DNA from: Nymphaea colorata
Taxonomy: Eukaryota; Streptophyta; Magnoliopsida; Nymphaeales; Nymphaeaceae
Direction of reading: 5' to 3'
DNA: 64,000 bases
Assembly: GCF_008831285.2 (NCBI RefSeq)
Contig: NC_045139.1
Span: 19,422,892-19,486,891, forward strand
Position numbers and translations under genes: made by a program. Positions 7,701 to 64,000 of the stretch are shown one piece after another; within the stretch, counting starts at the first letter, position 1; each line of letters begins with the position of its first letter. A model generated the notes under the pieces. That model was not told where the DNA came from. It saw only the letters and a list, made by a program, of their open reading frames with translations, and searched no databases.

Positions 7701-10645
7701 ATCGAGATCTTGACCTCATATAAACAGAAGTATTTGTCTCTTCCAGGTCAAGAAATTAGAATGAGTGAGTTTTTCAGTGACTAGCTGATTCAAGAAGTTG
7801 GCTAATGGACCAGAATGCATAGAGGAATCCATTGACAAGGGAAGAACAAAAACAAGATCAGAAAAATTCAAAGACAAGTAAGAAAGAAAGACGAATATGA
7901 AGAAGGAGACCTCTAATCAGCAATAAAACAGTATCAGCCCCTATCAACCCGCCTTTCAAACAAGGTAAGCTGATATAAGCAAAAAGCAAAAGCTCGGTTT
8001 TTTTATATATATTTTTTTAACGAGCCTGCTGAAGGGGTAAAACCTGCTGGAAGTGGGGCAAAGAAAGAAAGGCTTATTGTGAACATTCGTTTTTTTTTCT
8101 TTTTTGGGCGGGGGTGTTTTTTTTTAGGTGGGGGGGGGGGGGGGCTAGAAGCCTGCTGGAAAAGAGCAAAGATGGTAACCTGTTTCTGTCAACCTGCACA
8201 AGCTTGGCAGATGGACAAAACTGGAGACCAAATATGGAGGAGAATAAAAGAACTACAGAGTAGATAGAAAAATGAAAACGTCAACCAATTGTGATGATAA
8301 AGAGTGGTTTAATACTGCTGTTACTAACTTATAAGGAACTGACTAGACAAAAGGGACGTTGGTCTACTGAGAATGGTCAAGACTAATGGGCAGACCTCAA
8401 ACACGTGCAGGGAGTAGAGAATACAGACTAAAGAGAGGACTATACGGCGTCATTAAGAGCATAGCTTAAAAGGAATACCAAAAGAAACAGTAACAGAGAA
8501 TGATGAGAGATCACCAAGAATAGAAATAAGAAGACAGGAAAGATGACAGATCAGATTATCGTCAGAAAAGAGGGATTTCTTGAGTGAAAAGACAACTTAG
8601 ATCTCTTTGAGCATGCCTCTAGTAAATGCCTGCAACCTGGCTTGATACCATCTAACATTTTGTAATATCAGATTACTGTGGCATCCACCAAAGACTTATG
8701 CACAGAAAAACGAGAAAGAAGGAGAAGAGAAGTGCCAAAGGATAGGGACGACGGCAGTGGCAGTAACTGTCCGCTGAACCCTAAGATTATATTATAAAAT
8801 AAATCTTTTACACCATCGACTAATAAGTCCTATTAAAAATAAAGAATATTTCAGCCATGCCATTAATGAGAAAACATAACGTTAAAAAGGACAAACAGTT
8901 TCTTGCTATGATGATGACAATGATGGCAATTACTACGTGGGTTTTTGTAGGACATTTACTGTTTGGATGCAGATGGCTCTCTTTTTGATGCCGCATTACT
9001 TTCAGCTGTTGGCGCCTTTGTTAATTGTAAGTTATGTCTTTCCTCATTCATGAAATGAATGCTAACTTGTATTGATGGAGCTTATTAATGCACTTTTCTC
9101 ATTTAGCAGTTCACCCAAAAAGTTATGATGTCTGTATGAGTTTGGTTCATCTTAACAATCCTGGTGTTTCTCTGATCATGTCTATTGACTGTTGTTATGA
9201 ATTGTTAACTAAAAATTGTAGTTGCTTAAGATCACTGACTGCTAGTAGCTTTTTTCCTCACATGCTTAAATTTCTTTTATTTTCTCTGTTATCCTGGATG
9301 GTTACACCTGCAGTTCACCATTACAACCCTTGTGGAGCAAGCTTTGGTGCTTGAAAATCTAAGAATCCTCTTACAAATTATTGGTTTGGGAGCTTTGTCC
9401 TGCTGTCTTAACTTCACATGGACATTGCATTTGTCACTTCATTAGACCAGATCCTGAGCTCCACATTCAAAACTTGGAACACTTTATGGAGGTAGCTGAG
9501 TTAATCCTTGTCTGAGTTAGGAAACAAGTCTCTCTCAAATCTCATCTTTGTAATCTGCTTCCTACTCGGCTACCTAATTTGGCCAAGCTACTGGGTCAAA
9601 TTTGTTGACTCCATGTTTGCCAATTGTACTTTTGTATAAGACTTAGGTCTCTAAGTGTCTAGTCAATTGTTATGTTTGCCAACTATATCCTGAGCAGGGA
9701 TAACTCTTGAACAAGCAAAACCCGCACCTTAGGTTTGATTCATTTGCTTCCCCAATCAAACTTGCATTGTACTTTTGCAACCAATTACTCCTTAGAAACC
9801 TTATTTTTAGGAATTTTAGTGCCATTTTCCTCTCTCAGTGTCTTACTTGAATATAATTGCTTATGTTAGTCATTTATTATTTGCATCTAGTCTATATTGT
9901 TGAGCATCACCTAGGTGACACCTAGTCGCTAGTTCTATGTAGATCTTGAAGGTTAGAATCCCAGAGAACAAAATTCTTGACTTTTATAGGCTGAATGTTG
10001 AACTTCCTGTACTCTTGACTTTTGGTGATGCCATTGCTCTGTTTACTAGGTTTCTCTAATCAACAAGCACTAAATGATTAAAAGTTGCTTCCATAAGTTT
10101 TTTTTACCCTGCAATTATTTCAGTTTATCATTTGTGTTGGTAATCGTGGAATGAACCACGTTATTATCACTCCTGTGCAGTGGAAATCCCCCCTGTTTCT
10201 CTCAGTGATGAAGGACGGATAACTGTTGCTTCTGCGGAGCTTTTAGAACACACAGAAGTGGTAGGCAGTAAGGAGAAAAGGAAGTTGCAGCTGGGGGAGA
10301 TTCCATTGTCACTAACATGTGTGCTACACAAGAAGTATATACTGGCGGACCCAAATGCAGAAGAAGAATCCATCATGGACACACTTGTAACCATCGTGTT
10401 GGATACATCAAGCCGCCTCCTGTTCTTGTATAAACCAGGGGGTCTATTTCTTGCTAATTCGTCAATGCTCCAGGTTCAATTTCTCTTACTCGTTTGGAAT
10501 TTGTGCTATTGTTACATTCATGTCTCCTAAGTAACAGATTTGCGGTGAATTACAGTCCTGTGTGCAGCTTGCAAAATCTAGACTGACTGTTTTGAAAGAG
10601 ATATTGAGAGATGCACTTTCAGAGATGGATGTTGATGAAGAGTAA
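1743..10645 (+). CDS. RRP43: Exosome complex component RRP43 (RNase PH-like), 7 exons
   Basis: Subunit of the RNase PH-like ring of the RNA exosome, which supports 3'-5' processing and decay of rRNA and mRNA in nucleus and cytoplasm. Exons: 1743-1952, 2039-2108, 2187-2292, 3215-3281, 8951-9026, 10181-10473, 10556-10645. All junctions are GT-AG and phases join cleanly to give 303 aa plus TAA, the usual plant length. Recognisable segments are an N-terminal FYEKHLSQSLRPDSRSLDE, then TADGSATAKIGHT (residues about 58-70), EFHMPPVCSPIVRPGRPAEV in exon 3, GKAAWMAYL-like and DIYCLDADGSLFDAALL (exons 4-5), and ILADPNAEEESIMDTLV (exon 6). The acidic tail ends DVDEE. The start was chosen because it is the first ATG of exon 1 and matches family N-termini. 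Intron 4 (5.7 kb) contains a copia element in opposite orientation; the coding exons are undamaged, so the gene is probably functional. Confidence 0.93.
3330..3626 (-). repeat. 3' LTR of the copia element (complete)
   Basis: On the minus strand it begins TGTTAAAACGTGTATAAGG, straight after GAAGGAGAG at the end of the RNase H frame, whose TAA stop (3621-3623) falls inside the LTR. It ends ...GATATTACA at 3330. TG...CA ends are typical of LTRs. Length is 297 bp. Positions 3330-3558 align with the other LTR; 3559-3626 have no counterpart there. Confidence 0.85.
3621..4836 (-). pseudogene. copia reverse transcriptase and RNase H remnant
   Basis: From right to left, 4576-4836 covers an RT segment with TSLYELKQASRSWF and a LYMLMILL relic of the polymerase active-site strand. 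4307-4531 continues with LRYFLGVEVDRQGDTL and QKYTLDLLEKTSM. 3621-4124 is the RNase H domain: TYTDADWAGDPNERLVSDYC, SSQKQKVVARSSTKIEYWSM, LLSDNQSTINIA and SRTKHIEI. Stops separate these parts. Homology to copia pol is certain; function is lost. Confidence 0.88.
5486..6669 (-). pseudogene. copia integrase remnant
   Basis: The clearest part is 5486-5791, whose translation has the copia integrase end: an YIINLLPVSIL-like helix, then SPYYILF, STFGCVC and KCKFVGYVDEYKGYQCYDP. Between about 5800 and 6600 the frame is broken and the catalytic DDE region cannot be read continuously. Not functional as it stands. Confidence 0.75.
6602..7870 (-). pseudogene. copia gag, zinc knuckle and protease remnant
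   Basis: The gag part (about 7123-7870) shows the retrotransposon gag signature: LKKGLMSVMEYI, then LINGLGPDF and PTFEELQAKLLHH. A frame change near 7147 leads into the glycine-rich stretch and a CCHC knuckle, CFQCNKRGHVKANC, in the same open frame as the aspartic protease motif WYVDSGAASHVTDN. Frame breaks between these modules show it is no longer a working polyprotein. Confidence 0.85.
8636..8650 (-). other. Primer-binding site for initiator tRNA-Met
   Basis: The minus strand reads TGGTATCAAGCCAGG just inside the 5' LTR, close to the plant copia consensus TGGTATCAGAGCCAGG (complement of the initiator tRNA-Met 3' end), with one base missing. It lies 10 nt from the recognised LTR end, a slightly longer gap than usual. 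Confidence 0.75.
8661..8897 (-). repeat. 5' LTR of the copia element (outer end missing)
   Basis: Aligns with 3330-3558 of the 3' LTR with scattered substitutions and small indels. Homology stops after ACAAACA at 8897 and the remaining 68 bp of the LTR are absent, so the promoter-bearing U3 start is lost. The sequence goes directly into host intron 53 bp before RRP43 exon 5. Confidence 0.85.
9027..10180 (+). other. RRP43 intron 5
   Basis: About 1.15 kb of ordinary AT-rich intron between exons 5 and 6. Donor T|GTAAGT, acceptor CTGTGCAG. No internal gene or clear repeat was seen. Confidence 0.8.
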
Positions 10646-13083: not shown

Positions 13084-15632
13084 TTACTCTTTCTCATCCA
13101 CAGTACCCACAGTGGCAACATCAGGTGGTAAACTAACAGCACTTGTTCCAACAGCTGCTTGATCTGGCACTAAACAAGACGATACAGCAGACAGTCTTCT
13201 TCTTTGCCTCCTCTCGCTCATCCCTTCATTTGGCTGTAATAACTTCAACCTTTCCCTGTATTCCTGCATTTCATTCTTGTATCTCTCCTTGTCTTTCAAC
13301 CCACAGGCTTGGTAAACCTGCAGAATAGATACTCGGATCTGAAAAAAAAAACATGGACCAAACAAGAATTTAAAAGCATTTTGGCTCCCCACTACTACTT
13401 CATCCTTCCTGAAGGATAACAACTCGTGGTGTCTGGCGACTCTCATGATGGCTAACATATACTATCATACTGAAAAACATAAATCAAACTGGTTATGTTT
13501 TTAGTGACTAACTTATCGTGTGAAAGACCTTATGGTTCCTTTGGAAACCACACGAGAAAGAAGCATAGAGGAAATCATCACCGGTATGTAACACAGAAGG
13601 AAATAACTCAAGCATGAAAAACATACAAGAAGGTGTTGTGCTGCTACACTAATCGTACTATTCTTAACTCGGGGAGATATCATATTTCGTATAGAACTCT
13701 CAGATGTTCTAATCAACGTAACGCCTATGTTCATCTACATACTGTTAACTGGTCTCGAACTTATGTCACATACATCTGATGGGAGTATGATAAGGACAAT
13801 AATACGCGGTATTATCCCTAATACAAATAAAAACTCACAGCACAGTGAAGCCGAGTAATGTAACCTTAGTTGAAATACTTTCAAAGTTTGAAGCATTTCA
13901 ACTAAGATTATCCTAGTTGGCTTCACTTCAAAGACGGTTGCGAATTGCGATCAAGAGCTCCACATAATGATCCATACTAAACGATTGAAGAGGCAACGTT
14001 TTAGTAAACGACGAATTTCAAAAGGAAAAACACGAAACTACATATCAAACATTGAAAAAAAACTAACAAAAGAAAACACGCGCGGGTAAAACAAGATACT
14101 CAACAGGGGAATGGGTCATTTTATCAACTAAAGGTTACGGCTTCTGAGATGGTTGACACTAGAACCACGCTATCTCCACACCGAAATATCATACACAGGG
14201 AAGTTTTAGGCTACTGCAAGATCAAATCGTACTAGAAAGAGAAGAATGCAGTTTACCATCCTCTCCTCATCAGTGAGCTTGTTCCAGGATTCCCCAATCA
14301 TCTTGCTGAACTCACGCTCTCTTTGCGGATACAGTAACTTAAGTTTGGAGTGCTTCTCAGCGAAGAAGAAATTATAGGCACTCCTATTAGGTTTGGGGTG
14401 ATTGGGATCCCTCCTCCTCCCTTTCCTTCGCCGGCGAAGCCGACCGGCTGCCATGATGCCACTAGCGCTCCCACCATTGTCCTCCGATCTCCCCGGATGA
14501 TAAAGCACTCCATGAAGAACTTCTGAACCAAGTTTCACACTCACCAAATACCCATGGTCAAACTTTCCATCTATGATCCCCACAACAGTAGAATTCAGTG
14601 GTGCTACAACAGAAAAACGATTGGATATCAGATAAATGAAAGAAGAAAAAGAAACAGAAGCTTAAAATAAGTGATCCGGTGAATGGTCACCTCCTATTTG
14701 CAGACCGGTCTTGCTTCTTCTCCTTCTCTTGCTTATTTGTATTTCTTCTTCTTGCTGTTGGTCCTGTGATTGTCTCGTAGGTGTCGTGACAGACTCTGAA
14801 GCTAAGATGTTTGCAGGCCGGCATGATGGGCTTTTAACAGACAAAGAAGCTGAAGGAAGATACAAAAGGTATAAAGTAAAACAACAGAGAGAGAGAGAGA
14901 GAGAGAGAGGTTGTGCATGTGTAGAGAAAGGAGACAAAAACCATGACAGGATTAATAAAAACCAGACAGAGTTCGTTCACTTGAGCATTTTACCTGCAGC
15001 AGGTGGAACTAAAGGTCCCCCCCTCTTGAAAAAGTAAACTTGCTCATAATGATGAAGCAAAGTAATGTAATACTTTCTCAACACGAAGGAAGCGCTTGTG
15101 GTTGTAGGTGGAAATTTAAAAACAGCAATCACCTCCTTCCACTTCCTGTCTGCAACAACCTAAAAAATGGAAACCAAATGCATAAAATACCAAATATAGA
15201 AAACGAAAGGAAGAAAATAATGGTAATATATATTCAGCATTGCCATTCAAATAGAACTTCAAAGAACATAAGCAGAAGGCATGAGCAAGGCAATTAAACC
15301 TTTTCCAAACCACCTCTCCGCGTCACTTCCACATAAAGAAGATGCAAATCCAGCTCCTTCCCTCCAATGACCGGAATCCTTCCAATAAAAACGATAAGTC
15401 TCTAATATGTTCATCTGCACTCTTTCAGTAGAGTGTGTCTGTGGGACCAATATACTTACATGAACCTCGTGCCAAGGGTAGAATGAAACTTCTTCAGCGT
15501 GTCCATGAAACCCACGGGATCCTTGAGTACATCTTCATGTGAGGCAAGAGAACAAGGATAAACCTTCTCATCCTTCGAAGTTTCCGACTTCTTTTCCAGT
15601 GGGGAGTGCACATCCTCTTTGCCGTCCACCAT
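13084..15632 (-). CDS. ARID and HMG-box DNA-binding protein (HMGB9/10/15 type), 6 exons
   Basis: Nuclear architectural DNA-binding protein combining an ARID and an HMG box, a plant-specific class; in Arabidopsis HMGB15 acts in pollen. Exons, minus order: 15632-15460, 15378-15300, 15159-14994, 14849-14691, 14603-14257, 13317-13084. All are GT-AG with matching phases, giving 385 aa. The ARID spans residues about 24-128, with PVIGGKELDLHLLYVEVTRR, RKWKEVIAVFKFP and SFVLRKYYITLLHHYEQVYF. A basic KRRRRSK stretch near 180-190 and RLRRRRKGRRR before the box may be nuclear signals. A conserved linker reads GIIDGKFDHGYLVSVKLGSE. The HMG box is about 258-333 (DPNHPKPNRSAYNFFFAEKH, WNKLTDEERM, GLKDKERYKNEMQEY). 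The ATG at 15632 has a good context (ACCATGG); an in-frame ATG at 15680 would add 16 residues. The exact orthologue within the HMGB9/10/11/15 group is not settled. Confidence 0.93.
13845..13926. repeat. Short foldback (hairpin) in ARID-HMG intron 5
   Basis: Arms 13845-13876 and 13895-13926 are inverted: GTGAAGCC then a mismatched middle then CTTAGTTGAAAT on the left, and ATTTCAACTAAG ... GGCTTCAC on the right, with an 18-nt loop. It could be a small MITE relic or an uncharacterised hairpin RNA source. No known miRNA sequence is seen in it. Confidence 0.6.
14886..14909. repeat. (GA)n microsatellite in ARID-HMG intron 3
   Basis: About 12 GA units in the intron between exons 3 and 4; on the gene strand it adds to the pyrimidine-rich character of the intron. 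Confidence 0.9.
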
Positions 15633-28900: not shown

Positions 28901-29823
28901 GTATGCTACGTCCCCACTACTAATCAAGCTAAATGAAACTGCAAGCAAGGGTTGAAATAATGTGGCTCCTCTCGAGATAAACCTAAAATCTTCGTCCAAA
29001 CGAAGACCCTGCTGGTTCTATAGAATGATTAAGCCGATTAAGACAGAAACAATGAGAACTCATTCCTTCGCCGTCTATATATTGCCGCAGACAATCACGA
29101 TAATGGAATAGACCGTCAATCAGAAATACCCACAATGGCACAGGAGAACCAAATTGATCAAGACAAAAGAAAACGCGAGAAAACCAGGTAAACCTGAGAG
29201 TCTTCCATCTCCAGATCGGTGGAATTGGGCGCCGTATCTCCGTCGCCTTTGTTCCCTTCGGTAGAATTCCCGTCGTTCTGCCTTGTTTCTTCATCAACCT
29301 CCGATGAAGCCTCTTTCTTCTGTTCCTCCTCCTCCAATGCAACAATCTACAAGACGAAAAAGGGAATTGATTCAACGTGCCCATCACCAGGGCATGAGAG
29401 AGAGTAGAGAGAGAGAGAAGGAGAAAGAAGAAGAAGAAATGGGGATCATACCGGAATATAACGGAATTTCCGGCGGGGAGGCTCCTCGGAGGGCGTGGGA
29501 GAAGAATCGTCCTTGTTCCCGTTGCTCGCGGTGGCCGTGCCATTGGCGGTGGCGCCATTGCTGGAGGCGGTCGCGGGGGTCCATTTGTAAAGAAGGAGGT
29601 GTGAGGAAGAGGAGGCGGAGGTAGAGGAGTTATGGAGGGAGGAGGAAGGTGGGTTGTGGCCGTGATTGTGGTTGTTGCTACTGCTGTTGTTGTTGTTGGC
29701 GGCGGAGGGAGGGGATATCTCCACCCACTGCTTCTTCCACTTCCTGACCGGGCCGCTGAACACCGTCGTCGACACGTATCGTGTGGACGACCGCCCCAGC
29801 CGCGTGCTACCCGCCCCCTCCAT
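20815..29823 (-). CDS. Conserved plant protein of unknown function with C-terminal EAR-like motif
   Basis: Model with three exons in minus order: 29823-29452, 29346-29194, 20949-20815, giving 219 aa. All phases are 0 and sites are GT-AG; the last acceptor has a strong pyrimidine tract (CTTGTTTTTCTGATACTCAG). Exon 1 encodes the conserved head [20 protein letters not shown] then KQWVEISP, a low-complexity N/S/H region, HLLLYKWTP, and [14 protein letters not shown]. Exon 2 is acidic ([20 protein letters not shown]). Exon 3 carries [11 protein letters not shown], which fits the LxLxL EAR motif used to recruit TOPLESS-type co-repressors. The head and an L-D-L-rich tail occur together in a family of short, uncharacterised land-plant proteins. 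Exons 1-2 are firm. The link over an 8.2-kb intron is inference; if wrong, translation would run on 11 codons past exon 2 ([11 protein letters not shown]) to a stop. No biochemical function can be assigned. Confidence 0.75.
20950..29193 (-). other. 8.2-kb intron of the EAR-motif gene
   Basis: No coding sequence was recognised here on either strand. It contains a compound (TA)n(GA)n(CA)n microsatellite at 25897-25984, a decayed repeat rich in ACTCAGCC/GACTCGG words (24850-25000), and a repeat with CGATAAAAAC/TTTTATCG inverted words (25280-25460). The rest is plain AT-rich DNA. Its identity as an intron depends on the gene model. Confidence 0.6.
25897..25984. repeat. Compound (TA)n(GA)n(CA)n microsatellite
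   Basis: Long TA run with one CA interruption to 25950, GA to about 25969, then CA. Expected to be highly length-variable. Confidence 0.95.
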
Positions 29824-31755
29824 CTCACACTCTCTCTCCCTCCCTCCCTCCTTCTTCTTCTTCTCACTCCAGAGGGGAAAGTTCAGGCTCCTTCCGCCTG
29901 AGGTTGGGTATAGTCCATCGGCTGGTTCGACCCAGAACCTTTCGGGTCGACCCTTTTCATCGCTGCTTGTTTGATATGTATAATCCAACTTTTTTAACGT
30001 CGAAATATGATTGGAGTGTGTTTGAGAAGGAACAAATTGTGTCTGAGATACATGTTTGCTTCTGATGTTTTCCTTTCATTAGATCCAAGAATGCAACACT
30101 GGACATAATCAAGCCATGTTTATTAGAAAAGAACATAATGTCCTTATATATAACATATGCTCTTATAGAATATGTTCTAACAATATGGTGTACTTACCAA
30201 ATGCCCTTTTTGATTACGAGCAATAGTGACGAAAACTAAGAGACTCTAATAAGCAAGTAGGCGAACCCAACTCCGGCTAGATTTGATTCTCAGGCTTAGG
30301 TTAGAGCAAGATTAGATCAGTTAAAAATTCAAGTCTCAGTATTTTAAAATTATAAGATCTATTGGACGTGGAGATTTCACACTCGTTCAACATAAAATTT
30401 CAATATTCGAGACACAACGCACCGCTCAAGCCAAAAGACCCACGAGACAGAGACAAAGAGAGAACATATCTACTAGCAGCATGAAAAAATAGGTGTGCAT
30501 TTTGAAGGGGCGTTTAATTTTTCCTGATCTAGAATTATAATGATTTGAGAATCATAGATTTAATATTAGGCTTTCTCTTAAGTGTAGATCTTAGGTCTGG
30601 CCTAAATGAACCATGAATTTTGCCATGCATATTTTATTATATTAGCAAAAACATGTCTCATCATATCCATATTAGATACTATGAAATTCAAATCTAATGT
30701 AATCAAACGCCTTCTGTTGACAAAAGGTAAAAAAACAGAAAGGAAACCATTTTATAGGTAAGAATTTCTTTTTTTTTGTTTTTATTAGTCAACGATGATA
30801 CAAGTACAAAAGTCAAATAAGACTGTTCTAACTGACGATCAAATCAAGGCTGACTTGTGAATAATCCTTGGTATCGGGCCTAATACCCGACAGGCACCCG
30901 CTACTGCCCGATAGGCCCGTAACTCATGCCCAAAAAAATCAGCCTGTGCTGACCCGATAGGCTCGATTCTATCTGTTTTATTTTTTAATATTATTTTATT
31001 TAATAATAAGACATATTCTATTATTAAAAATATATTTTATATTTAAATTTTGTTATTTTATATTTAAAATAATATTTTTTTATCTTAACAGGGCCTGGCC
31101 CAGCCCAAGCTAGAATGTCAGGTCTTAGGCCATGCTCGGACTTGATTTTCGGGTGTCAGGCCATCCTGGGCAATGCCCAGACCTAACTTTAAATCCATGC
31201 TGCTGTTAAATCTACTTTTTAAGGAAGCAGTGGGTTTCAATGGCATGGATCTAAATTATTCGAGATCTTTGGCTATCAAACACAAAGATCCGTGGCTATC
31301 AAACACAACCTTACTTCTTCTTGTTTCATACTTATCCAAAAATTTGATGGGCATGTGAACACTTCCATTTAAGCGACTTTTTAAATATTACTCATAAATT
31401 AACAGTTCATATTTAGTTGGTAATTTGAGAAGTTCCTTGTTCTTCCACAAGAACAAAAAGGTATTGAACAACAACATCACATGAGACTTTTATACCGTAA
31501 GAAACTGTTTGCATGGGGATATCATTGCACCAAGTTTTTATCCGTTGCCTTACGTTAAGAATAAGACGATTATTAATTAATGAATGCATAATGATCAAAC
31601 AGGGTTTTCTAGCTCTCATGGGCCCCTAAAAATAGTGGCCATATCTCACAATTCTTTTACAAGCTAGCTATGTCGCAGGGACACTTGGAGCTTGATTGCT
31701 ATGTCTTTCAATACACATCAAACAAAATAGTACACCTGAATAAATTCTTTTAAGG
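29824..31755. other. Intergenic upstream of the EAR-motif gene
   Basis: 29824-29990 is CT/GA-rich and likely its 5' UTR/promoter. 30500-30720 carries words (GATTTGAGAATCATAGATTT) shared with other islands at about 33950-34230 and 61280-61500. 30870-31190 has a CCCGACAGGC/CCCGATAGGC-type repeat. Near 31269 and 31291 GGCTATCAAACACAA is duplicated. No gene is supported. Confidence 0.45.
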
Positions 31756-33770: not shown

Positions 33771-35651
33771 CTTGAGGCAACTTCAGATCAGTTTCATGGC
33801 TAGATACGTTTAGGTAAAGTGATGATCACTAGCTGGATGGTTGGCCTCACAATGGTTGAAAGAAAGAAGGCTCATTTGCAAGATTTGTTAGATAGGAACT
33901 ATTCCATCAACCATTAGTGTGACCGAATGCCTTTAATATGAGACTAAAAGTGATTTGAGCTCCTAAAACTCAAGATCCCCAAGATTTCAGATCCATGGTT
34001 TTCATCATAAAATTAAAGTTTTTCTTCTAAAGATGCATCGTAAATTTTTTTTAACCTTGCATACATCATTAATTGATGCATCTGAAGCCAGTCCTTTCTC
34101 TGGCTATCGATCCATCATTTAAGAGATAACAAGGATCTTGAATTTATGGCTTGATAATACAAAGTTCGACAAAACCATAAATTTTAAATGGGTCCCATGA
34201 TAGATCTGAGATCCATAATAATCAGACACCCCATTTAGAGTGGTTTTGAATTCTTGAATAACCTTCACCTACACATAAAGGTTGTCGGGAGGTGGGTGCA
34301 AACATATGCGCTAATCCATGTCTTGAATGATTTCTTCCTTCTCACAGTGAAAAAGAAAAACTTTCCTAGATTTTCAATCGAAACAAACGGACTGGAAAAT
34401 TTATGAACTTTTTTGAGTTAGACAAATAGAAAAGCTGTTCCACACGGCAAGATCTACAAATTTATGCTTTTGAATCTACATTCAAAAGCGAGATTCCTTT
34501 TTTTTTCTAACAATTTCAAGAAAGTCAAAGAAAAGTACTACCAAATGTAAATGATGCGTACTACCTTCGAACTGAAGTGTTCCTGGTCCTTTTGCTTTTT
34601 CCCCTTTCAAATTCAACCTTGAGGACACGCCTACCATCACCAACTCTTGCGTGTCAAAACTCAAATCTTCGTTCCTTTAACCAAAAAGCTACGCCCTTCC
34701 TTCCCCATAAATATTGCTCACCTAAATCCTTGACTATTTATTGTCAAGTTTTATTAAATCTTATCAAAATTCAAATACTAGCATACAAAGAGGCAGATAG
34801 GGTCCTGTAAGCATATTTCAATACCTTTTGTTCTCAGACTCACATACTACGCTTCATCCAAATATGTGGTTGCGGTTTTTCTTGTATAAATTTAATGTAA
34901 ACAATGGTCTCAGTGGGCGTAATATAGCTGGTCAACAGAGGTCCTGCAAAAAGGCACAACTTTAGTTTGATTCTTGTTGGGTGTTATTTTTTTGAACTAT
35001 AAATGATGGGATCACAACACTCTAGTTGACAGATATATAGTGTCACATCCATATACCAATGCAACTCATGACCCTAAGGATAGAGAGAATGAGAAGGAAG
35101 GAGGCTTTCGGACCTCTTTTCCAAGTGCTTCTGCTCACCTGAAACTAAATAGGAAAGTTAAGTACCCTTATTTCCATTTGCCTCAGATTCTGGAAGTGTA
35201 TAAGAGTTTGTTGGGAAGACTGCGTAGGGTATTCATAGATGCTGGATGAGCAGAAGCCACCAAGAAGAGAGCGTGAGCCTCTCCTTCTCCTTGCATACAT
35301 TGCTTGGAGCGGTATAGAAGTTTGATGGGAAGACAGTGTACCATCAACTTGGTATTGGGCTAGTTCACTGTAGTTCAGGAGATAAAGTTTTGAATGGTTT
35401 ATAACCAGATTTTGTGAACCCATAAAGCCAAAATGGTTGTTCTTGAAACCCCTTAGAAATTCGATTTACAGTAAAATCGGTTCCAAATAGTGGATAGCAC
35501 AGTTACCCATCCTTTCATAAGCTAACCCGGTGCAAACTGGATTTACATAATTTTTACCTTGGATCACTTGCTTACTCATGAGTCATGTCTTGGCATATTC
35601 TCTTGCACCATTTATGAAGCAAGCTCATATTGTTCATGAATGATGAGCTTT

Positions 35652-35700
<49 letters not shown>

Positions 35701-36279
35701 TCGTTAATGGGATAGCAATAACTCCCCAGAAACAGTGGTGTGCGGTTCTTGGGAGGGGCAAAGGGCGTGTGTGCAACTGCAACGGTTCGGTGATGGAAAC
35801 GTAGAGAAAGAGGAGGAGGAGGAGAAGGAGCAAAGGAATATTGTGGGATGTGTTTCCGTTTTAATGGCTCTGCCAACTCCTCCTGCTTTCTTTCTCCAAA
35901 TTTAATGCTCTCCCTCTCTCACTCTCTCTCCTCAACCCTCTACTTAAGTTCACCACCACTGAAGGACATTCCCTCCCATCGACCACAGCACTCTCCGGCT
36001 CAAGTCCCAACTAGGAGAGCCTTCCCTGTTCCTTCCTTCAACTCCCCATCTTCCTTTCTTCTTCTTCCTTGCTTCCCATCTTCCCTTTCGCATCCTTCTG
36101 CGAAATATCTCATGCTTCATTTTGATCTCTGGGTATGCAGTCCTCATTCTTTGAAGCTGGTGATGCCGATTCGTTTACTTATATATGGGTCCTTTTAATT
36201 TCTAGTATTGTGGTTGGGGAGATCACGATCTCTTTATTGATGCGAATGTTGTAATAATAATCATATGTTGATCATAGAT
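33771..36279. other. Intergenic; 3' part is the likely MIR171 promoter and pri-miRNA 5' end
   Basis: 33771 to about 35630 is repeat-flavoured AT-rich DNA with no gene. A (TA)n(GA)n microsatellite sits at 35652-35700. From about 35880 to 36150 the plus strand becomes strongly CT-rich (CTCTCCCTCTCTCACTCTCT and similar), as often seen around plant transcription starts, and probably belongs to the primary transcript of MIR171. No convincing TATA box was found. Confidence 0.45.
35652..35700. repeat. Compound (TA)n(GA)n microsatellite
   Basis: TA run to about 35676 then GA run to 35700, about 600 bp upstream of the MIR171 hairpin. Confidence 0.95.
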
Positions 36280-36385
36280 GCATGGTGATTGCGATGTTGG
36301 CTCGGTTCAATCAGAAAACACTGCTCAGAACAGCTGAGTCGTGTACTTTGATTGAGCCGTGCCAATATCACAGTACTTGTCTCTC
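36280..36385 (+). ncRNA. MIR171: MIR171 microRNA precursor
   Basis: The 3' arm holds miR171 at 36349-36369; its first 20 nt read TGATTGAGCCGTGCCAATAT, identical to the conserved plant family. The 5' arm holds miR171* at 36295-36315 (TGTTGGCTCGGTTCAATCAG...). Pairing of 36293-36313 with 36349-36369 is complete except for one U-U mismatch and two G-U wobbles, and the duplex has 2-nt 3' overhangs at both ends, exactly as DCL1 leaves it. The loop is 33 nt (36316-36348), with a weaker stem below. miR171 directs cleavage of mRNAs of HAM/SCL6-type GRAS transcription factors that control meristem and branching. No such target is in this window. A (CT)n run follows at 36380-36399. Arm and overhang evidence make the call firm; primary transcript limits are unknown. 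Confidence 0.95.
36349..36369 (+). ncRNA. miR171: Mature miR171
   Basis: 21 nt on the 3' arm, starting with U as expected for AGO1 loading. Core TTGAGCCGTGCCAATATC matches the widespread family sequence. The 3-nt shifted form beginning TTGAGCCGTG (36352 on) is also possible, since TCAC follows. Confidence 0.93.
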
Positions 36386-39300
36386 TCTCTCTCTCTCTCC
36401 ATTACAGGGAAGTGCAGAATTAGACAGACCGCCCCCTCGTTCTCACATTGACGTTGTTTTCATCGTTTTTCTTTCTTCTTTTTTCGCACTTTCTTACGCT
36501 CTTTTTGCAGGTTTCTTTCTTGAAGATCAACGTGTTAAGTTCTTTTTGCTGTTCCTGTGTCTCAAGAAGGGTTGAGCTGCCTGCAGAGAATAACTTTTTT
36601 GTTGCCATCTTCACTATCCTCTCAACGGACGAAGAGAGACAGGGAGAGAGCGAGAGGAAATAAATGAGGGGGGTGAGGGACGGAGGGTCTCTTTAATGAG
36701 GGTAGTAAATGTTATTCGGCGCGGTTGAAAGAATAGAAACTGTCGGCATTTAAACAAAGGTGACCACGCATTTATAATGGCAGTCAGACAAAGATTCCTC
36801 TACTGCAGACCCTCATTACTTCCACCAGTAACTCCCTTTCTTCCTCTCCCTCTCTCTCTCTCTCACGCACACATTTACTCACTTGTTTAAAAGTCTTTTT
36901 GGAATTAAAGACTACTCACACTTACTGGCTGTTTCTACCTCTTTCTTGATGATGACAAGAAGTTCTTAGTTGCTACCGAACAAGCGAATGCTCTCGCTTT
37001 TACCTTTCCTTGAGTTGCTTTTCACACCTCTTCATTGCCGTGTAGGACGAAGGTGGTTGATACGTAAAGAAGAAAACTTGGTGCAGTTACAGGGGTTGGT
37101 GAGGAAGATGCATGATGCAATCCTTTTGAGGAACGAAGTCTTAATTACGCTGTCGCGTCATAGTCTGTTTCTAATCCAGACTGAAACTCTGCTTTATGAA
37201 TCTTCCAACTCGGTTGTTGGTTCATCTCTCTGCTTACAGCTTGGAACGTTATGGTTGGACTTGGGCAACTCTTCGAATCCTTGAGCTTGAATGCTTTAAT
37301 TCTTTTGTCTACTTCCAACTCCGTTTGTTGTTGGTATGCCCATGTAGCAAAAGTTGCAACTTTCAGTTGATGCATTTGCCAATTCAAGCTCTTCTTTTCC
37401 CTGCAGCGTCGTTAAAAATATCAAATTAGTTACATTATCAAATCTAGAAATCTTTTGAAAAAAAGTCGTCCTTCTTCCTTTTTTTTTTCCTCCATCTGCT
37501 TTCACCACCCACTTTTCTGGTGACTTGTGTAACGCGTCGTGACGTATAACATTCCATTTAGTACAAGCCCCACTTTAATCTGGTTCATGCCATGAGTACT
37601 TAGCTAAAGAATTCAAAGTATCTACTCACATTATTTCAGATACTGGTAAGAACCGATCTTGAAACCCATAAATTATTACATCTTTTTCCTCTTGGAGGAT
37701 GAGGAACCCTTCAAGAAGAAAAACCTTGAGTGAGCCCCGATCATCAGGGCCTATGAAGAGAACGCCATGTTTCAAAACATGGTGCAATTTGTCAAGCTTG
37801 CATCTGCAGTTGCATTGGTTCACTAATATAAAGCAAAGCATACACACTTGGAGCCTTCTCATTGTTTCTTTTTCACATTCTGTAGTTAGATCACGAGACA
37901 AGAAGATCAGGAAAAAGCACTAATGCTAGGAACATTTGATAAACCTCTTACATAGCAAGTTAATCACTCTCACACTTTCCATTGGTAGGGCAACATATAA
38001 TTGTCTCTTAACATAGATCACATTCGATCCCTGCAGCATATGTACCTTTCTCATTGTCCCTCGCATGTTTCTTTGATAATCCATTGCCTGGCATATTAAG
38101 CATAATCCTTCCAATGCGGACCTAACCAATCATAGGCCCAAACTCAACCTCTTTTAACTTGGTCTCTACTCAGCCCCTTAAACGTAAGGACATATACAGC
38201 TCTTATTGGCACATACATAACCAAGTCCACCATTTGGGCAAGATTGGAGACCAATGGATGAGGATAAAAGGTAGGATACTTGAGCACTCAACTGATGGCA
38301 GAATGAAATACTCCTCTTGCCCACCCAAAATACCATGCGAGAATCCTAATTTGAGAATCAAAACAGGCTCTTTCACCGTAGTTTTCATGTTAAAACCAGG
38401 TTTGTCACATTCGTTACACGTGATCCGGAGAAGAGAATTCTCTTCTAATGCGGGTACGATGATGAACAGAGCGTAGGACCTTAGAGTGTAAAAGCTTCAC
38501 CTAGATTAATGCTCTGACACCTTGGTCGGCCTCTCTCACATTTAAAAGAAAGAAGTTAGATTTCTGCTTTTAAGAGTTGCGTTGGGCTCGAGCTGCAGTG
38601 GCAAATTTCAAATGTTTTCAAACGCTGCAGTTGATGAATCACAATTAGACAAAATAAACAAACATCAAACCGCATAATTCTTTTGTTGGTCCTCGTTGGC
38701 AAACTAGGATTAGGCAGATGCTTGTATCCTAAGCCACAAATCGTTAACTATTAGCCTCTTTTAATGGCATCCATATATCTGCCTCCTACCCAAATAGTGA
38801 AAGCTCTTGTTCATGGAGTCAAGAGACTTGGGTGCAGATAAAAGAAAACTCTACAATTGCAACTCGCAAGCTCTTGATCATCTGTTATCTTCAAGTAAAA
38901 GCTCTGCTAGTTCGTATAATCAACGTCTCCTTATTGCATCACATCTCATCGCTTCAATAAGTGTTCTTTGTTTTTTGATTCTTTCAACAAAAGAATCTGA
39001 ACGTATAATACTATTGCTCTGCATTATTATTGATGATGGCTAACAGAAAATGAGTACGAGGAAAGATTTCGAAAAGATGCATCACATGAAGTTTGCAAGA
39101 GCGAATAGCAATAGTACTAACGTATTAAATACGCTAGAGGGGCGAGTATGCAGATTGTATTTATTTTTGCAAAATAAATATATTTCTACGATTGATATTT
39201 AATTAGACCGAGGAATCAAAAGGAAAACCCATCTCGGGAATGCGAATCGTTAATCAGCCAGACTTAACCGGTTCCCTTCTTCTCATAGTAACCTTGGTGT

Positions 39301-46700: not shown

Positions 46701-49587
46701 GCATAGATTAAGAAAGCTAAAACCTTTTTAACATTTTGAGCAATAACCTAGAGGAAGGACACCATTTAATGAAAATCTCCAAAACAAAGTAAAATGCATT
46801 GGTGTGATAGTTGTTCTGATGATAAATGATTCAAGAAGGTGGGGGAAAAAGGGAATGGAGCATTATATCAAGTCACAGAACTAAGACACAAGCCTGACAC
46901 AACCTCAAACAAAATGAAGACAATAAAATTGTTCTAAGTGAAAAAAAAAAAACTTTAATGGCAAGCTAGGAAAATAAAATACTTTAAGCACATACTTGTA
47001 GACAAGGACCCAGAATTCTGATACTCTAAAAATCCTAACATTCATAAAATCCTGGTTTTACAATTCATTGCTTCACACCTGTCTTCAATTTCTTTTCAAA
47101 CTTCAGGATTTTTGCCAACCTCAGATAAGAAAAATGCTGATGACAGACTATATTCAAACTGCTATTAGCAGCAGACCTATTTCCATCAATAATAGATAAA
47201 TAATGAAAGGCGGTACCGGTGCAGCTCTCCATGAAAGGAAGCAAGTGCACTCACTATAGCGCACAAATAAAAAGAAAGGTGTGAGAAGTATCTATGTTTC
47301 TTCAACTGCTGAATGCATGCTCAGAAATATTATATAAATATTTAAAATGGATGTTTGTTTCCTCAAATGCTTCTATTAAAACCTTAGCCTGACTAAAAAT
47401 TGTGGTTATCAAACATTTGACACTCCATGATGCAACTGAGAAGCCAAAACTGAACAATCTTCAAAAAAATTTGCTCCTGAAAAATAGGTTTAACAATTTT
47501 GAACTTGGAGGGATAATATTGGACCTGGAGTTTGTGAAATAAGTGTAGCATCCCAGAGGGGTTCATTTGTTTTGCAACAAAATAAAGAAGGATCCATAAT
47601 GAGTCGGATGGGTGCCAGTACCTGGCTGGTGCTAATCCCAAATTCCAGGGATAGTGTAAAGTCCCTGTTCACCAGTATCTAACCTGAATGACACATAGGT
47701 AGAAACATGGCTTTGAGATACCCAACTCAAAACAGAGTTACTTGTAATTCCAAGTAAAATTATATTTAAGCTCTCCTGCTATACAACCTGGAAAGAGCAT
47801 CCATTTTCTCAACTCAGTATATCTGCCTGCACTCTCTAGCAGATTGTTTTGCATAGTAACAACACTGGCTACAAACTTTTTGTCAATACATTGCCTGTCA
47901 AACACAACCAAATATGGAATGTGGAGGTATACAACTGATATTGATATTAGCTCACTTGAAGCATAATAAAATTGGTGATAGATTGGTACTGGACCCTTGT
48001 GTCATATTCCAGAAGAATATTGACAAGATGTCAAATATGAAACTCATGTTTTCTAGTTCTTCTACCTCTTACCTTTTTCTTAAGATATACCAAAGGGAGC
48101 AAATCCATTGGTAAGTTCAGTTATGTGCTCTGGGTTAGATAATAAGTAAAGATTCTGGAATCTTTACTATGAAAAAAAAAAAAAACCATCCGTCAAAACC
48201 AAATGATGCAATATTAGCTTGCATTAACGTGGATCACTGGTAATTAATTGAAGAAGACTTCTATGCGTTGAGATAATGCATGCCAGCCTTTATTTGCCGC
48301 CTGAGATAGCATTTACTGCTCTTTGCAATTGCTAACGTGTGAACAAAATCCACTTTCAGTACACATCTATCAACACATTGCTCATAGACAAGTATTTATA
48401 GAATTTAAGGATAGGTCTCTTATGAAGAATCAAAAGAACCAACAAAGAAAGAGTAGCAAATAGCCTGTGCAACAATTAAGGCACATCAATTGTACTTCAA
48501 AGAATTGAAACATAGAATAATACAGCAAAGACAATGCACTGGTAAGTCGATATACCTTACTGATTGGATATGTGATGGGCAGGAAGATCAACAGAAGCAC
48601 ACGAACAACAGAAGCAAGCTTCGCACCAATTTTCAATCCATAACGAGAGCACACTGCCTGAGGAATAATCTGGAACAACCCTATTTTTCACCAGTTTAGT
48701 CATGATTTTTCCCATATTCTAAAGTTTTTAAATTATCACGATATATGGAAGGTAGCTCAGATTTTGCTATCTCACAGCATTTGCAAACCCGCAATAAATA
48801 TTTTCTCATAGTATTCGAAACCACAGGCTATATTTGTTTGTCAAATAATTCATAATGAAAGTGAAAACCATGGGAAGAGGAAAATACCTCCCCAAATGCC
48901 AGAATCAAAGTCACTGACATCAAGATCGCACCCCAAGCGGGAAGAAGTGCATCAAGAAATATGGGGAGCGCCTGAACACATTAAAAAAATAACATACTAC
49001 GTCAACGATTAAAAAGAACAAAGAGAGCCCACCATGGGGACAACAAACCGGTTGCATTTTCTTACTTCCATTGCCAAAGAGTTGCAAACAAGCAACGTAC
49101 AAAGGAGCAGATGCTGATTCTTTACAACCGGAAGTATCTTCGCTGCAAAAAGCTCCAAACAAAACCACCAAAATTAGAAAGCTAACAAAATCTTGTCTGT
49201 ACTAAAATTTTCAAAGCCGAACAGCGGAACACGAGAAATCTAGACATGCACTTCCACTGCAATGATCCAACCGCACCACCAAAAGACCGAACACAATCAG
49301 CAAAATTGACAAAAATACAGAATAAGTGTAGGACCTTAAAATTCAGGCGATAACAATGAAAAATCACAAGAGAAAAGGACGAAAAAAAAAAGCCAAGAAC
49401 TAAAACCTGCATGTTTCCTGTCCTGGGGTTTGCCTGCCTTCATCAAGACTTCAAGATCGACGAGGCTCAATGACATGAGGCCCAGGGTAAGTCCGGACAT
49501 CAACCCGGCGAAGAGTACCAACCCTGTGCAAGTGAGAAGGTACACCCAGAACATGGGTTTGCAGCAAGGGACATCGTTGGCTGCCAT
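40792..49587 (-). CDS. CNNM/DUF21 domain and CBS domain membrane protein, 12 exons
   Basis: Plant member of the CNNM/CorC family, integral membrane proteins linked to divalent metal transport. Exons, minus order: 49587-49407, 49142-49066, 48971-48888, 48669-48556, 46698-46612, 45354-45215, 45135-45048, 44916-44843, 44156-43963, 42823-42570, 41227-41181, 41098-40837. All are GT-AG with matching phases, giving 534 codons. The DUF21 transmembrane domain covers residues about 12-150 ([60 protein letters not shown]). CBS modules follow: [12 protein letters not shown] to [20 protein letters not shown] (about 210-262), then [17 protein letters not shown] and [20 protein letters not shown] (about 415-434). 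A Ser/Pro-rich tail ends the protein. Family members in Arabidopsis are of similar length (At1g47330 type). After exon 12 a good donor (CAA|GTAAGT) exists but no convincing next exon; reading on adds 14 residues to a stop at 40792, used as the end here. An in-frame ATG at 49650 would lengthen the N-terminus by 21 residues. Confidence 0.9.
45749..46177. repeat. About 212-bp tandem duplication in CNNM intron 5
   Basis: Copy 1 is 45749-45960 and copy 2 is 45961-46177, starting CAATCTTGAAGGACACAG and ending TTTGGAGTTTC. They differ at few positions and by a short TATACTC-type insertion, so the duplication is fairly recent. It lies between exons 5 and 6 and does not touch coding sequence. Confidence 0.92.
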
Positions 49588-51559
49588 TTTCGGAGCTGCC
49601 GGCTTTACAATAACTCCAGCTTCTGCTATTCCATTCCTCCAAATGGCCAAAAACCCAGTATCTACAAAGAGAAAAACTCCCCAAAATAATAGATTTTGTG
49701 ATGGTACCTAATACCCCGACTCAGTATGGAAAATAAAGAATCAGAGAGAGAGAGAGAGAGAATGAGTGGAGGTTTCACAGGCAAAGGGTTTTAATAAGGG
49801 AAGGCAAGTGGAGATGGTACTCAGCGTCACGTTTCACTTGGCCGCTGTGCTGCACTATACGACGAAGGAAGACAGTGGTATTTTCGTGTTTTGCCTTTTC
49901 GTTAGTTGGATTTCGCCGAGTGGTGAACCACTTCGTTAGACGATCGATGGTCTCTCACCTTTGTTCTTTTTTCACCGTTTTCGCAACTGTTTGATGACAC
50001 CAAGTAACCGTTTGTCCCACGCTGGGATTATGGATAATGCGATCAAGTTGGGAGTTGGCTTGGCATCAGAGAATCTGCTTATCGGAATTTTCCGTTGCCT
50101 GTATCATCCTTTTGCTGTCGTTTGGAAGAACATAGAGTTCATATTGGCTGACAGCCTTACATACGTAAAACATAGAAAGTGAGAAAGAAGCGTAACTATT
50201 ACAGCACTACACCCTTATAAAAAATTAAGGTACTACCCTCTAACAATATATTGCGGTACACTTCCTAAATATAAATTTCAGCAAGCAAGTTTTCGACCAA
50301 ATTCAGAGCCCCATCGTAAAGTGTCTCCGAAAGAAAAGCCTGTGTTTGGGTCATACTCAATCTATGCTAAGATCCAATTTTTAGAATGCAGTACTATCCA
50401 ATCCGACTGAGAAAGGTGGTGGGCAATTGACCAAACGAGGATTTCCCACCTTTGAAGAGTAGTGAATGAAAGCTAGTTGAAAACTTGAATAGCAACAAAG
50501 GCTGAGAAACGTCAGCAAATGTGTATAATTACAGAAAAAGCTAGCGACCTAAGCTTTAGCTTATAAGGAAGATGCATCAAGAAAACGTTAAGTGGTTATT
50601 TGATTGCGGGGTAAAAACTTATTACAAACTTAATTCCCATGCATTTTGATTCTGGGAAACAAACATCAGAACAGGAATGGAACCAGAAATTTCTAACTAA
50701 GGGGCACTAGTAATAAATTTTAATTTTTTAAAGAGCATCAACATATGATAAGAAAAATTGTCCTAAGGTGTCAATATAAAAATAAGTAATTTTTTGTGGG
50801 TATGTATGGGCAACCCACACCTAGCCTACACCACTGCATAAGAACTTCTCTTATGCACATTTAGACATTTGGTTTCAAACCTCTTCGTTAGATATGTGGT
50901 CATGTCCATTTGAAAAACAAATTGAAGAACACTTGAGATCATTTCTAGAGTAACAATTTCAGGTTGGCGACTTTTACGCACAAACCCTTTTAGAAAGCTC
51001 GATTTGAGAGTAACAATGAGAATGAAGCGACAAATGGAGATTGGTTTAATCAACATTATCCAACGTAAGCAGTTTAAAATAACTTATCTCCACCCCAATT
51101 TTTACTCCGTTCCCATCTGTGCTCTCATCTCCATATTTCATGCTTCCTCCAGAAACAAGTGTGGCAAGAGGCATTCAAAGCTCGTTATAGATGCTGGGCC
51201 AGGCTACATGGCTAGCTACAAGACGGTGGGGCTTTTTTATGGGATGGTATGACAAGCTAGATCCTGTTATGGAAAAGCTTGAACATCGACGCCATGTATT
51301 TGTCACAAGCAGAAATGATGATGGCATTGGCACCTTTCATAGAGGCCCCATCGGTGGATACTTGGTTTGGTGCACCGAATTTGCATGCACTATCTTTTTT
51401 CCACATTCAAGAACTTAACCAGAATCGGGGAAATCTCCCTCTTGGGCCTTAGATTAATTTGGGGAGCGAGCTACGTACCTGGCTTTTGCTTGCCTGCCAT
51501 TTCTGGCTAAAAAAGTCATGGTGATGCTTAGATCTCTCTCTCTTTCTCTTTTGCCTGCC
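49588..51559. other. Intergenic upstream of the CNNM gene
   Basis: 49588-49900 probably holds the 5' UTR and promoter of the minus-strand CNNM gene; a (GA)n run lies at about 49745-49762. The rest is AT-rich with a worn GGAACCAGAAATTTCTAACTAAGGGGC-type dispersed repeat around 50680-50840. No gene is seen. Confidence 0.45.
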
Positions 51560-52247
51560 CTTTTTCTTCTTGCTACCTGGCCTCCTTTGGTCCCTCTGTC
51601 GCGTCACTCCCCCCCGGTCTCTTTGGTCCCCTGGCCCTTCTTCTCGAGCCATTGCTTTTGTTTGGCTTCTTCTGACTGGCCATATCAACACTTTTGATCA
51701 CCTACAGCGCCTTGGCATCAGTTTGGCTAACCAGTGTCCCATATGTCTTGTTGCGACTGAGTCTCGGGTCCACCTTTTTACTTCTTGCCCTTTTTTCTCT
51801 AGTGTCCTTGCTTCTACTTGGCCTTTCCTTGTTAGTAATCTTTCAAACCCACCATCCATTCGTCTTTTCTTCCTCTTTTGTCCTTCCTCCACCTGACTGC
51901 TTCCTGGGGTCATGTCTGGAGGCCATGGCTCATTTCAGCTTGGTGGCGCATTTGGGTGGAGCGCAACAACAGGGTCTTCAGGGGCACATTCTCTTCACCA
52001 GATTCTGTGGCTCGTCTTGTGCAAGGGAATATCCAGTTCGCCATTCGGTTAAAGCGCCGCCGCCTGACTGCGGTTGGGTGACTGTGTCGTTTCGTCTTTC
52101 CTCTTCTCTCCTATTTTTCTGTGCATTGTATTGTTTATGTGTTCCTCCTGCTTGTGTTTTTTTGCGTAATTTTGTTCTTTGCGGATTGTTTTTGTATTTA
52201 GGGGACCTCTTGTCCTCAAATTTTGTTATATATTTCCATTTTATTGG

Positions 52248-52322
<75 letters not shown>
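51560..52322 (+). mobile_element. 3' end of an L1-type LINE with (TA)n tail
   Basis: The plus strand encodes the zinc-binding region found at the end of plant LINE reverse transcriptases: AFVWLLLTGHINTFDHLQRL, then ISLANQCPICLVATESRVHL and FTSCPFF (51570-51896). A shifted frame continues with WWRIWVERNNRVFRGTF (51878-52081). The C-x2-C...H-x4-C pattern is intact. A T-rich 3' UTR follows and the copy ends in a (TA)n run at 52249-52322 instead of poly(A). Only the last part of ORF2 is present and it is frameshifted, so it is a dead 5'-truncated copy. Confidence 0.87.
52249..52322. repeat. (TA)37 microsatellite at the LINE 3' end
   Basis: Uninterrupted TA for about 74 bp directly after the LINE 3' UTR; probably its expanded tail. 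Confidence 0.95.
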
Positions 52323-61731: not shown

Positions 61732-62857
61732 AGCTCGGCTTGATGAACTTTTTTAATCGAGTTAGTCCAAGTGTCAAATAACCAGCTCAAGCCCAGCCCA
61801 TCATGAGTCAGGTATCCAGTCCGTTGCCTTTTTCCAAGCCAATTTTTTTTCTTTTATTTTAAGTTTTAAGCATTGTCTTTGTGATGTATTGAGTATAAAT
61901 TTTGTTTCAAATTTGTATGACCCAATCATATTTTTGTTATTAAAAAAACATTTGAATAACTTAATATATGTTTCTCACCAAATCACTCTTAATATTACAT
62001 CTATAAGGTTAGGTTGCAAAAAAAAAATATTGTAATAAATAATTTTAATGAGTCTGGTATTTGTTTCTTACGCAAATAGGTCTGGTTTTTACCAACTTCT
62101 AGATATACTTTTGTGACTGTGAACTAGTTAATGGTATTTCAAGGTTATGCCCATATTTGGGAGTTGGAGTGACTAGACCAACTTTTTTATGCCTCCACTC
62201 CTAGTCTTTGATGCTTAGGGGCAGTTAATTTACATTTATGACACATTATGTGCTATATATCGTAAATATATTTCACAAAATCTAATCCTTTCCCTAAAAA
62301 ACAAGTCGCTCTTGTTCTACTTATGCAGCCGCTCCTAAAATTGAGCTCGAACTCCGCCCTTCCATGGTATGTCTCTTCACCGTTTGTGAGAACGCTCTTG
62401 TCCACAGGGGAGCTTGAAGAAGGGCAGCTCAGCTGGTTAAGCGCATTTGCCAGCCTGAACTATCTTTTTTGTCATCTCTAAATTTCATACGGTTTCTTAC
62501 CTTCTCCACCTCGTTTTTCAAGCTTGAAGGCTCTAAGACATTGCTTACTTATTCATAACCTAACAGAGTTTAAACTACCCACTTGCTGCCCTTGTCACCG
62601 TGAACTAGCTAGCCCACTTTTTATTGGACCACGTGTTCGAGCCTTTGGCGTTGTGGGTCCCCAAATTCAAAACCATGTGGCAGGACCCGGCCCAGTTCTG
62701 AAGCTCCATCTTTTGCCCACAGTGCCAGAGAGATGGCACCATGAAACATGAGGATATGGTTCCTTATCCCAAAATCTAGCTCGTTCTCTCTCTCGTTTTC
62801 ACACTTCTCATAGACTGGTGAAGAACTCCCTGGTTTCTCCTTCCTCTCATCACGCTG
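61732..62857. other. Intergenic and cpSRP43 5' region
   Basis: 61732 to about 62350 is AT-rich repeat DNA. At 62424-62450 the words GGCAGCTCAGCTGGTTAAGCG look like the head of a tRNA-derived repeat, but no B box is in place. From about 62760 a CT-rich stretch (CTCGTTCTCTCTCTCG) leads to the cpSRP43 ATG and is probably its 5' UTR. Confidence 0.45.
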
Positions 62858-64000
62858 ATGGATGCCATTCTTACCCACCACTCCTCACTCTCCCCCAAGC
62901 CTCCACTGTCGACCCTTTCCTCCAATCTCACCAAATGCCTCCCCTTTACCATCCACATCCCTCCATCCACGAGTTTTGCTGGCACTGGCACTTCCGCCAA
63001 CATCCAGAGGCTATACTCTGCCATCCATAAGAACCACCAATCTTTCATCCCCAGGACTTCTACGACACAAAATACGAGCGTCCAAGAGGATGAAGAAGCG
63101 TATGGAGAAGTGAAGGGGATCATAGGGAGCAGGGTGGTCGAAGGCCCTAGAATGGAGTACCTCATCGAGTGGAAAGACGGGCACACACCCTCTTGGATTC
63201 CTTCCCAGAACATCGCGAAGGACGTCATCGCGGAGTACGAGACCCCCTGGTGGACGGCCGCTAAGAAGGCCGACGAGGCTGCCCTGCGTTCCCTCCTTTC
63301 CCAGGAAGGCGGCTCCCTCCGCGACGTCGACGCTGTCGACGAGAACGGCCGAACGGCGCTCATGTTCGTCACCGGGCTGGGTTCGGAGGAGTGCATCCGG
63401 CTGCTAGTGGAGGCCGGCGCGGCGTTGGATTGGCAGGACGAGGTGGGATTTACAGCACTGCATATGGCAGCCGGGTACGTGAAGCCGGGAGCAGTCAGGA
63501 CGCTTCTGAAGTGTGGGGCAGACCCAGAATTAGAGGACCAAAGAGGGCGAACGCCGGGGAAGCTCGCGAAAGAGCTGCTGGAGCAGACGCCGCGGGCGAA
63601 TCCCGTGCAATTTGCCCGGCGATTGAGCCTCGAGTCTGTAATCAAGGAGCTCGAAGGGGCGATATTTGAATTCGCAGAAGTGGAGCAAATTGTGGGGAAG
63701 AGGACTAATGGCCGGAGAAAGGAATACTTGGTGCTGTGGAAGGATGGAGGAGACAAAGAATGGGTGGAAGAGAAGTTTGTTGGGGAAGATCTTGTGAGGG
63801 ACTACGAGGCTGGGCTGGAGTACGCCGTCGCTGAGGCGGTGCTAGGGAAGAGGGAGGGCAGCGAGGAAGGGAAGTGGGAGTATCTGGTGAAGTGGGAGGA
63901 CGTGGAAGAGCCAACTTGGGAGGAAGCGGAGAACATCGACCCGGAGCTGGTGGCGGAGTTTGAGCGGCAGCATGGTGAAGCCCCGGCTCCTGGGGAGGTT
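62858..64000 (+). CDS. cpSRP43: Chloroplast signal recognition particle 43 kDa protein (cpSRP43), 3' end beyond the window
   Basis: Chloroplast stroma chaperone that, with cpSRP54, carries light-harvesting chlorophyll proteins to the thylakoid; it also protects tetrapyrrole enzymes. A single open frame from ATG 62858 gives 381 codons with no stop before the window ends. Residues 1-75 are Ser/Thr/Pro-rich and lack acidic residues, as in a transit peptide. Chromodomain 1 is about 84-131 ([16 protein letters not shown] then WIPSQNIA). Ankyrin repeats are about 135-268 ([37 protein letters not shown]). Chromodomain 2 is 274-319 ([17 protein letters not shown]), which binds the cpSRP54 tail. Chromodomain 3 is 325-370 ([20 protein letters not shown]). 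The frame has no intron so far, as in Arabidopsis, and is GC-rich compared with its surroundings. Arabidopsis cpSRP43 has about 373 aa, so only a few codons should be missing. Confidence 0.95.

Follow-up and report, generated by a model that had tools for sequence, protein, structure and literature searches.

A predicted MIR171 gene of the ordinary land-plant type in a 64-kb window of plant DNA

The MIR171 microRNAs form an old family of land plants that is conserved and has been studied in depth, and its targets are described as the HAM/LOM/SCL genes of the GRAS type (PMC8910752). The Arabidopsis members are reported to vary in processing mode (PMC8688358), with mir171a listed as base-to-loop (PMC5322449). 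In short base-to-loop precursors, a bulge located 15 to 17 bp beneath the duplex is described as the guide for the first cut (PMC8688358). The 21-mer that we found here is known from foxtail millet as sit-miR171b, which was aligned to a GRAS mRNA with RACE-mapped cleavage. According to the same report, sit-miR171a, with one base different, fits that cut too, and sit-miR171b itself gave no detection by RT-PCR (PMC3878754).

We analyzed a window of 64 kb (the whole stretch of DNA under study) in which a plus-strand hairpin around position 36300 is, judging from its sequence, very probably best explained as a single intact land-plant MIR171 gene. In a comparison against all Rfam families, positions 36283 to 36381 of the plus strand matched RF00643 (MIR171_1) over the full model (1 to 101) with 80.9 bits (E value of 3.9e-14), the cut-off for this family being 48 bits. 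The miR171 core UGAUUGAGCCGYGCCAAUAUC was found exactly at 36349 to 36369, and the 21-mer at this position is widely published as miR171. The initial annotation had named the locus MIR171, an assignment supported by the Rfam match, the fold, and the identity of the 21-mer to published miR171. Star arms differ among species, and neither the exact form of the predicted star nor its 17-nt core had a match in the literature searched. As expected, the exact 21-mer was found in 0 viral and 0 prokaryote contigs.

When Rfam matches with an E value of up to 1 were considered, the whole window gave seven, two of them to MIR171 (one per strand) and five below the family cut-offs. The latter, namely, mir-297 twice (overlapping TA repeats), snoR116, MIR408, and MIR2600 on the antisense of the MIR171 hairpin, were taken as chance. 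No second MIR171 was found within the 64 kb, either by Rfam or by the mismatch scan.

The complete paired hairpin, lower stem included, spans 36276 to 36384 (plus strand). It had been proposed that miR171 lies at 36349 to 36369 and miR171* at 36295 to 36315, and the sequence and its fold placed both 21-mers exactly there. The former, TGATTGAGCCGTGCCAATATC, is the predicted mature miR171 on the 3p arm, as indicated by its pairing and by its identity to the published 21-mer, and the latter, TGTTGGCTCGGTTCAATCAGA, is the predicted star on the 5p arm, with sequence and pairing as evidence and its ends set by the 2-nt overhang rule. In the minimum-energy fold, the duplex ends at the pairs U36349-A36313 and U36295-A36367, leaving a 2-nt 3' overhang on each strand. 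There is a single mismatch within the duplex (U36302 x U36360), together with two wobbles (G36296-U36366 and U36306-G36356), while a further wobble (G36314-U36348) sits at the overhang. The inter-arm segment (36316 to 36348, plus strand) is 33 nt long and is made up of a 2x2 internal loop, 4 pairs, a 1x1 mismatch, 6 pairs, and a 5-nt terminal loop. The fold reproduced the features given in the initial annotation, namely, the 33-nt loop, the one mismatch, the two wobbles, and the exact 2-nt 3' overhangs.

Beneath the predicted first DCL1 cut, the lower stem occupies 36276 to 36294 on the 5' side (19 nt, plus strand) and 36370 to 36384 on the 3' side (15 nt), ending at 36276/36384, with 15 pairs between the 5' cut and this end. 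It is interrupted by single-base bulges at 36283 and 36287 and by 1x1 mismatches at 36292/36370 and 36279/36381, and it was identical in three folds of differing length. This predicted lower stem roughly fits base-to-loop cutting by DCL1, toward which it leans; there are 15 pairs under the 5' cut, but any of the two bulges and two 1x1 mismatches might act as the guide.

If the locus behaves as other members of its family do, a primary transcript would be made from it, and the first DCL1 cut would probably fall where the duplex begins, at its base (between 36294 and 36295 and between 36369 and 36370), and the second ca. 21 nt higher in the stem. An ARGONAUTE complex would then take up the 3p strand, which would be expected to guide the cleavage of GRAS mRNAs of the HAM/SCL6 type at sites resembling GAUAUUGGCGCGGCUCAAUCA, by which the activity of these HAM/SCL6-type genes in meristems would be limited.

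We compared the stability of the hairpin with that of shuffled sequences and of the rest of the window. The arms paired in the fold of 36250 to 36410, which reached -60.3 kcal/mol (z score of -6.46), and 0 of 200 shuffles were as stable. The hairpin core (36279 to 36381) had -54.6 kcal/mol and a z score of -8.7, and none of 1,000 dinucleotide shuffles was equally stable. The raw energy is not unique, since -60.3 kcal/mol was reached by 17 of 3,192 plus-strand segments of 161 nt, three of them over the MIR171 hairpin and the other 14 elsewhere, with a G+C content of 0.59 to 0.69. With G+C regressed out, the segment at 36281, over the hairpin, ranked second of 1,596, after a segment that covers the (TA)n array located near 52.2 kb.

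The surroundings of the locus had been described as gene empty. We searched 50 of the window's 79 open reading frames (ORFs) of at least 90 amino acids (aa) against Pfam (E value of up to 0.01), the remaining 29 being away from the hairpin. The description is valid to a limited extent: none of the 21 ORFs of this size between 30.1 and 48.9 kb had a match, and probable pieces of protein genes lie elsewhere in the window, at about 10 and 14 kb and perhaps at 29 to 30 kb. The interval from 30.1 to 48.9 kb holds 220 ORFs of 40 or more aa, and the Pfam scan there covered those of at least 90 aa, a size that small exons may fall below. The piece near 10 kb (10144 to 10527, plus strand) matched RNase PH domain 2 (PF03725, 34.6 bits) and perhaps belongs to an exosome subunit gene, and the one near 14 kb (14206 to 14658, minus strand) matched an HMG box (PF09011, 33.9 bits). 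The ORF at 29446 to 30072 (minus strand) had a sub-cut-off match to BCL7-N (16.2 bits versus a cut-off of 25); we presume a resemblance to the plant BCL7-like (BDH) chromatin-remodelling subunits. Another sub-cut-off match, to CNNM, was seen at 49336 to 49704 (minus strand).

Mobile elements have also left traces in the window. Pieces of a copia-type LTR retroelement, with gag, Pol beta-barrel, and SH3-like domains, are spread over three ORFs at 5486 to 7506 (minus strand), and a zf-RVT domain at 51525 to 51893 (plus strand), perhaps the remains of a LINE-type element, lies near a (TA)37 array (52249 to 52322). Together with the microRNA family, the retroelement pieces point to a plant as the source of the window. 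The longest ORF listed (341 aa, 62776 to 63801, minus strand) coincides with the 2 kb of highest G+C content in the window and had no Pfam match; it may merely mirror a gene on the opposite strand. No tRNA was found in the window. The initial annotation had warned that an ORF-based annotation would miss the microRNA gene, which is fair but routine, as a single Rfam scan detects the locus. Its value is for genome annotation, as an example of a kind of gene that protein-gene finders overlook.

As for the start of the primary transcript, the CT-rich stretch at 35880 to 36110 (plus strand) had been taken as its promoter-proximal part. This is possible, as one among at least two readings, and the TATA-like site in this stretch is CTTAAG at 35943 only. 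A rival candidate core promoter is the TATA-like TATATAT at 36180 to 36186 (plus strand), 115 nt before the star, a motif match from which a start near 36210 would follow. ORFs with an ATG start, of 97, 39, 28, 13, and fewer codons, begin between 35864 and 36246 and are possible miPEP ORFs. A scan of 35600 to 36300 for bacterial-type promoters and terminators, which is not relevant to a plant, returned 0 and 0.

One unlikely alternative to a plain MIR171 gene is that the hairpin is intronic in its own primary transcript, with splicing versus DCL1 setting the level of miR171 and perhaps with use of the antisense as well. A speculative intron containing the hairpin would run from 36133 to 36407 (plus strand), with the donor GG/GTATGC and the acceptor CATTACAG, or else to an alternative acceptor ending at 36510. 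The donor at 36133 was the top-scoring one between 35950 and 37100, and the acceptors ending at 36407 and 36510, both past the hairpin, were the two most pyrimidine rich between 36050 and 37200. The CT tract preceding the first of them starts right at the stem base (36380). However, the scoring used a splice-site consensus, and 26 donor-acceptor pairs on the plus strand of the window, counting the present two, were equally good, so that the lead is close to chance level. The precedent is Arabidopsis miR162a, in which the mature microRNA is described as coming from the unspliced pri-miRNA only (as cited in PMC2831844); we liken the predicted intron to that case.

Quite unlikely, in our judgment, is a decayed or silent MIR171 copy, one that has kept the hairpin and lost its transcription. 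In its favour, plants have several MIR170/171 genes, with four in Arabidopsis (PMC8910752), and the candidate promoter sites upstream of the hairpin are motif matches only. Against this stands the preservation of the locus: the mature 21-mer is unchanged, and the duplex, the lower stem, and the loop are all intact, which suggests either selection or a recent copy.

The probability is very low that both strands are used, with an antisense hairpin yielding a second miR171-like RNA, TGATTGAACCGAGCCAACATC, the complement of 36293 to 36313. The minus-strand hairpin (36281 to 36379) did score above the MIR171_1 cut-off (60.4 bits; E value of 4.8e-9), and it was stabler than all of 1,000 shuffles (z score of -5.4). 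However, a near-perfect hairpin would tend to score on either strand and may do so without being used. With 3 of its 21 positions unlike those of miR171, the antisense 21-mer should pair less strongly with GRAS mRNAs; the sections of the literature on antisense microRNAs that we examined describe no antisense miR171. We consider the minus-strand match to be a weak lead. Finally, we give almost no credence to a false precursor. In such a case, the locus would face a GRAS target gene on the other strand, and the complement of the target site would be read as miR171 within a chance hairpin, as reported for grapevine vvi-miR171g, whose predicted precursor lies across from a GRAS gene (PMC2831844). 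This reading is disfavoured both by the ORF scan, in which none of the 50 ORFs searched out of 79 matched GRAS (including 21 of 21 between 30.1 and 48.9 kb), and by the complementary-site scan, in which the only miR171 sites within 5 mismatches on both strands of the window were miR171 and the reverse complement of the star arm. The plus-strand ORF spanning the hairpin has 104 aa and the preceding one 134 aa, and both arms and the overhang geometry agree with a genuine precursor.

Returning to the single intact MIR171 gene, its dimensions can be compared with those of barley MIR171e as given in PMC3558349. There, the microRNA starts 55 nt after the star, versus 54 nt here, and the precursor has -59.1 kcal/mol, versus -57.2 kcal/mol for 36270 to 36392. 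The barley star starts at nucleotide 95 of the gene; with a start near 36210, the star here would begin ca. 85 nt into the transcript. The barley hairpin sits within exon 1, and a single intron follows it (PMC3558349).

The comparison with Arabidopsis MIR171B/C is looser. The core is common to both, and the +3 register, TTGAGCCGTGCCAATATCACA, which is reported in the literature, could be cut here too, but Arabidopsis miR171b/c are given as ending in ...AUCACG (PMC8910752), whereas the sequence here would end in ...AUCACA. Furthermore, mir171b/c are listed as loop-to-base (PMC5322449), in contrast to the base-to-loop leaning of the stem predicted here. The locus is like the MIR171A type (RF00643, MIR171_1) in having the microRNA on the 3p arm and a full-length match to the model, and its mature 21-mer is the same as that given for grapevine MIR171A, -C, -D, and -I (PMC2831844). 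It brings no new principle and is an ordinary, fresh instance of the known MIR171 family.
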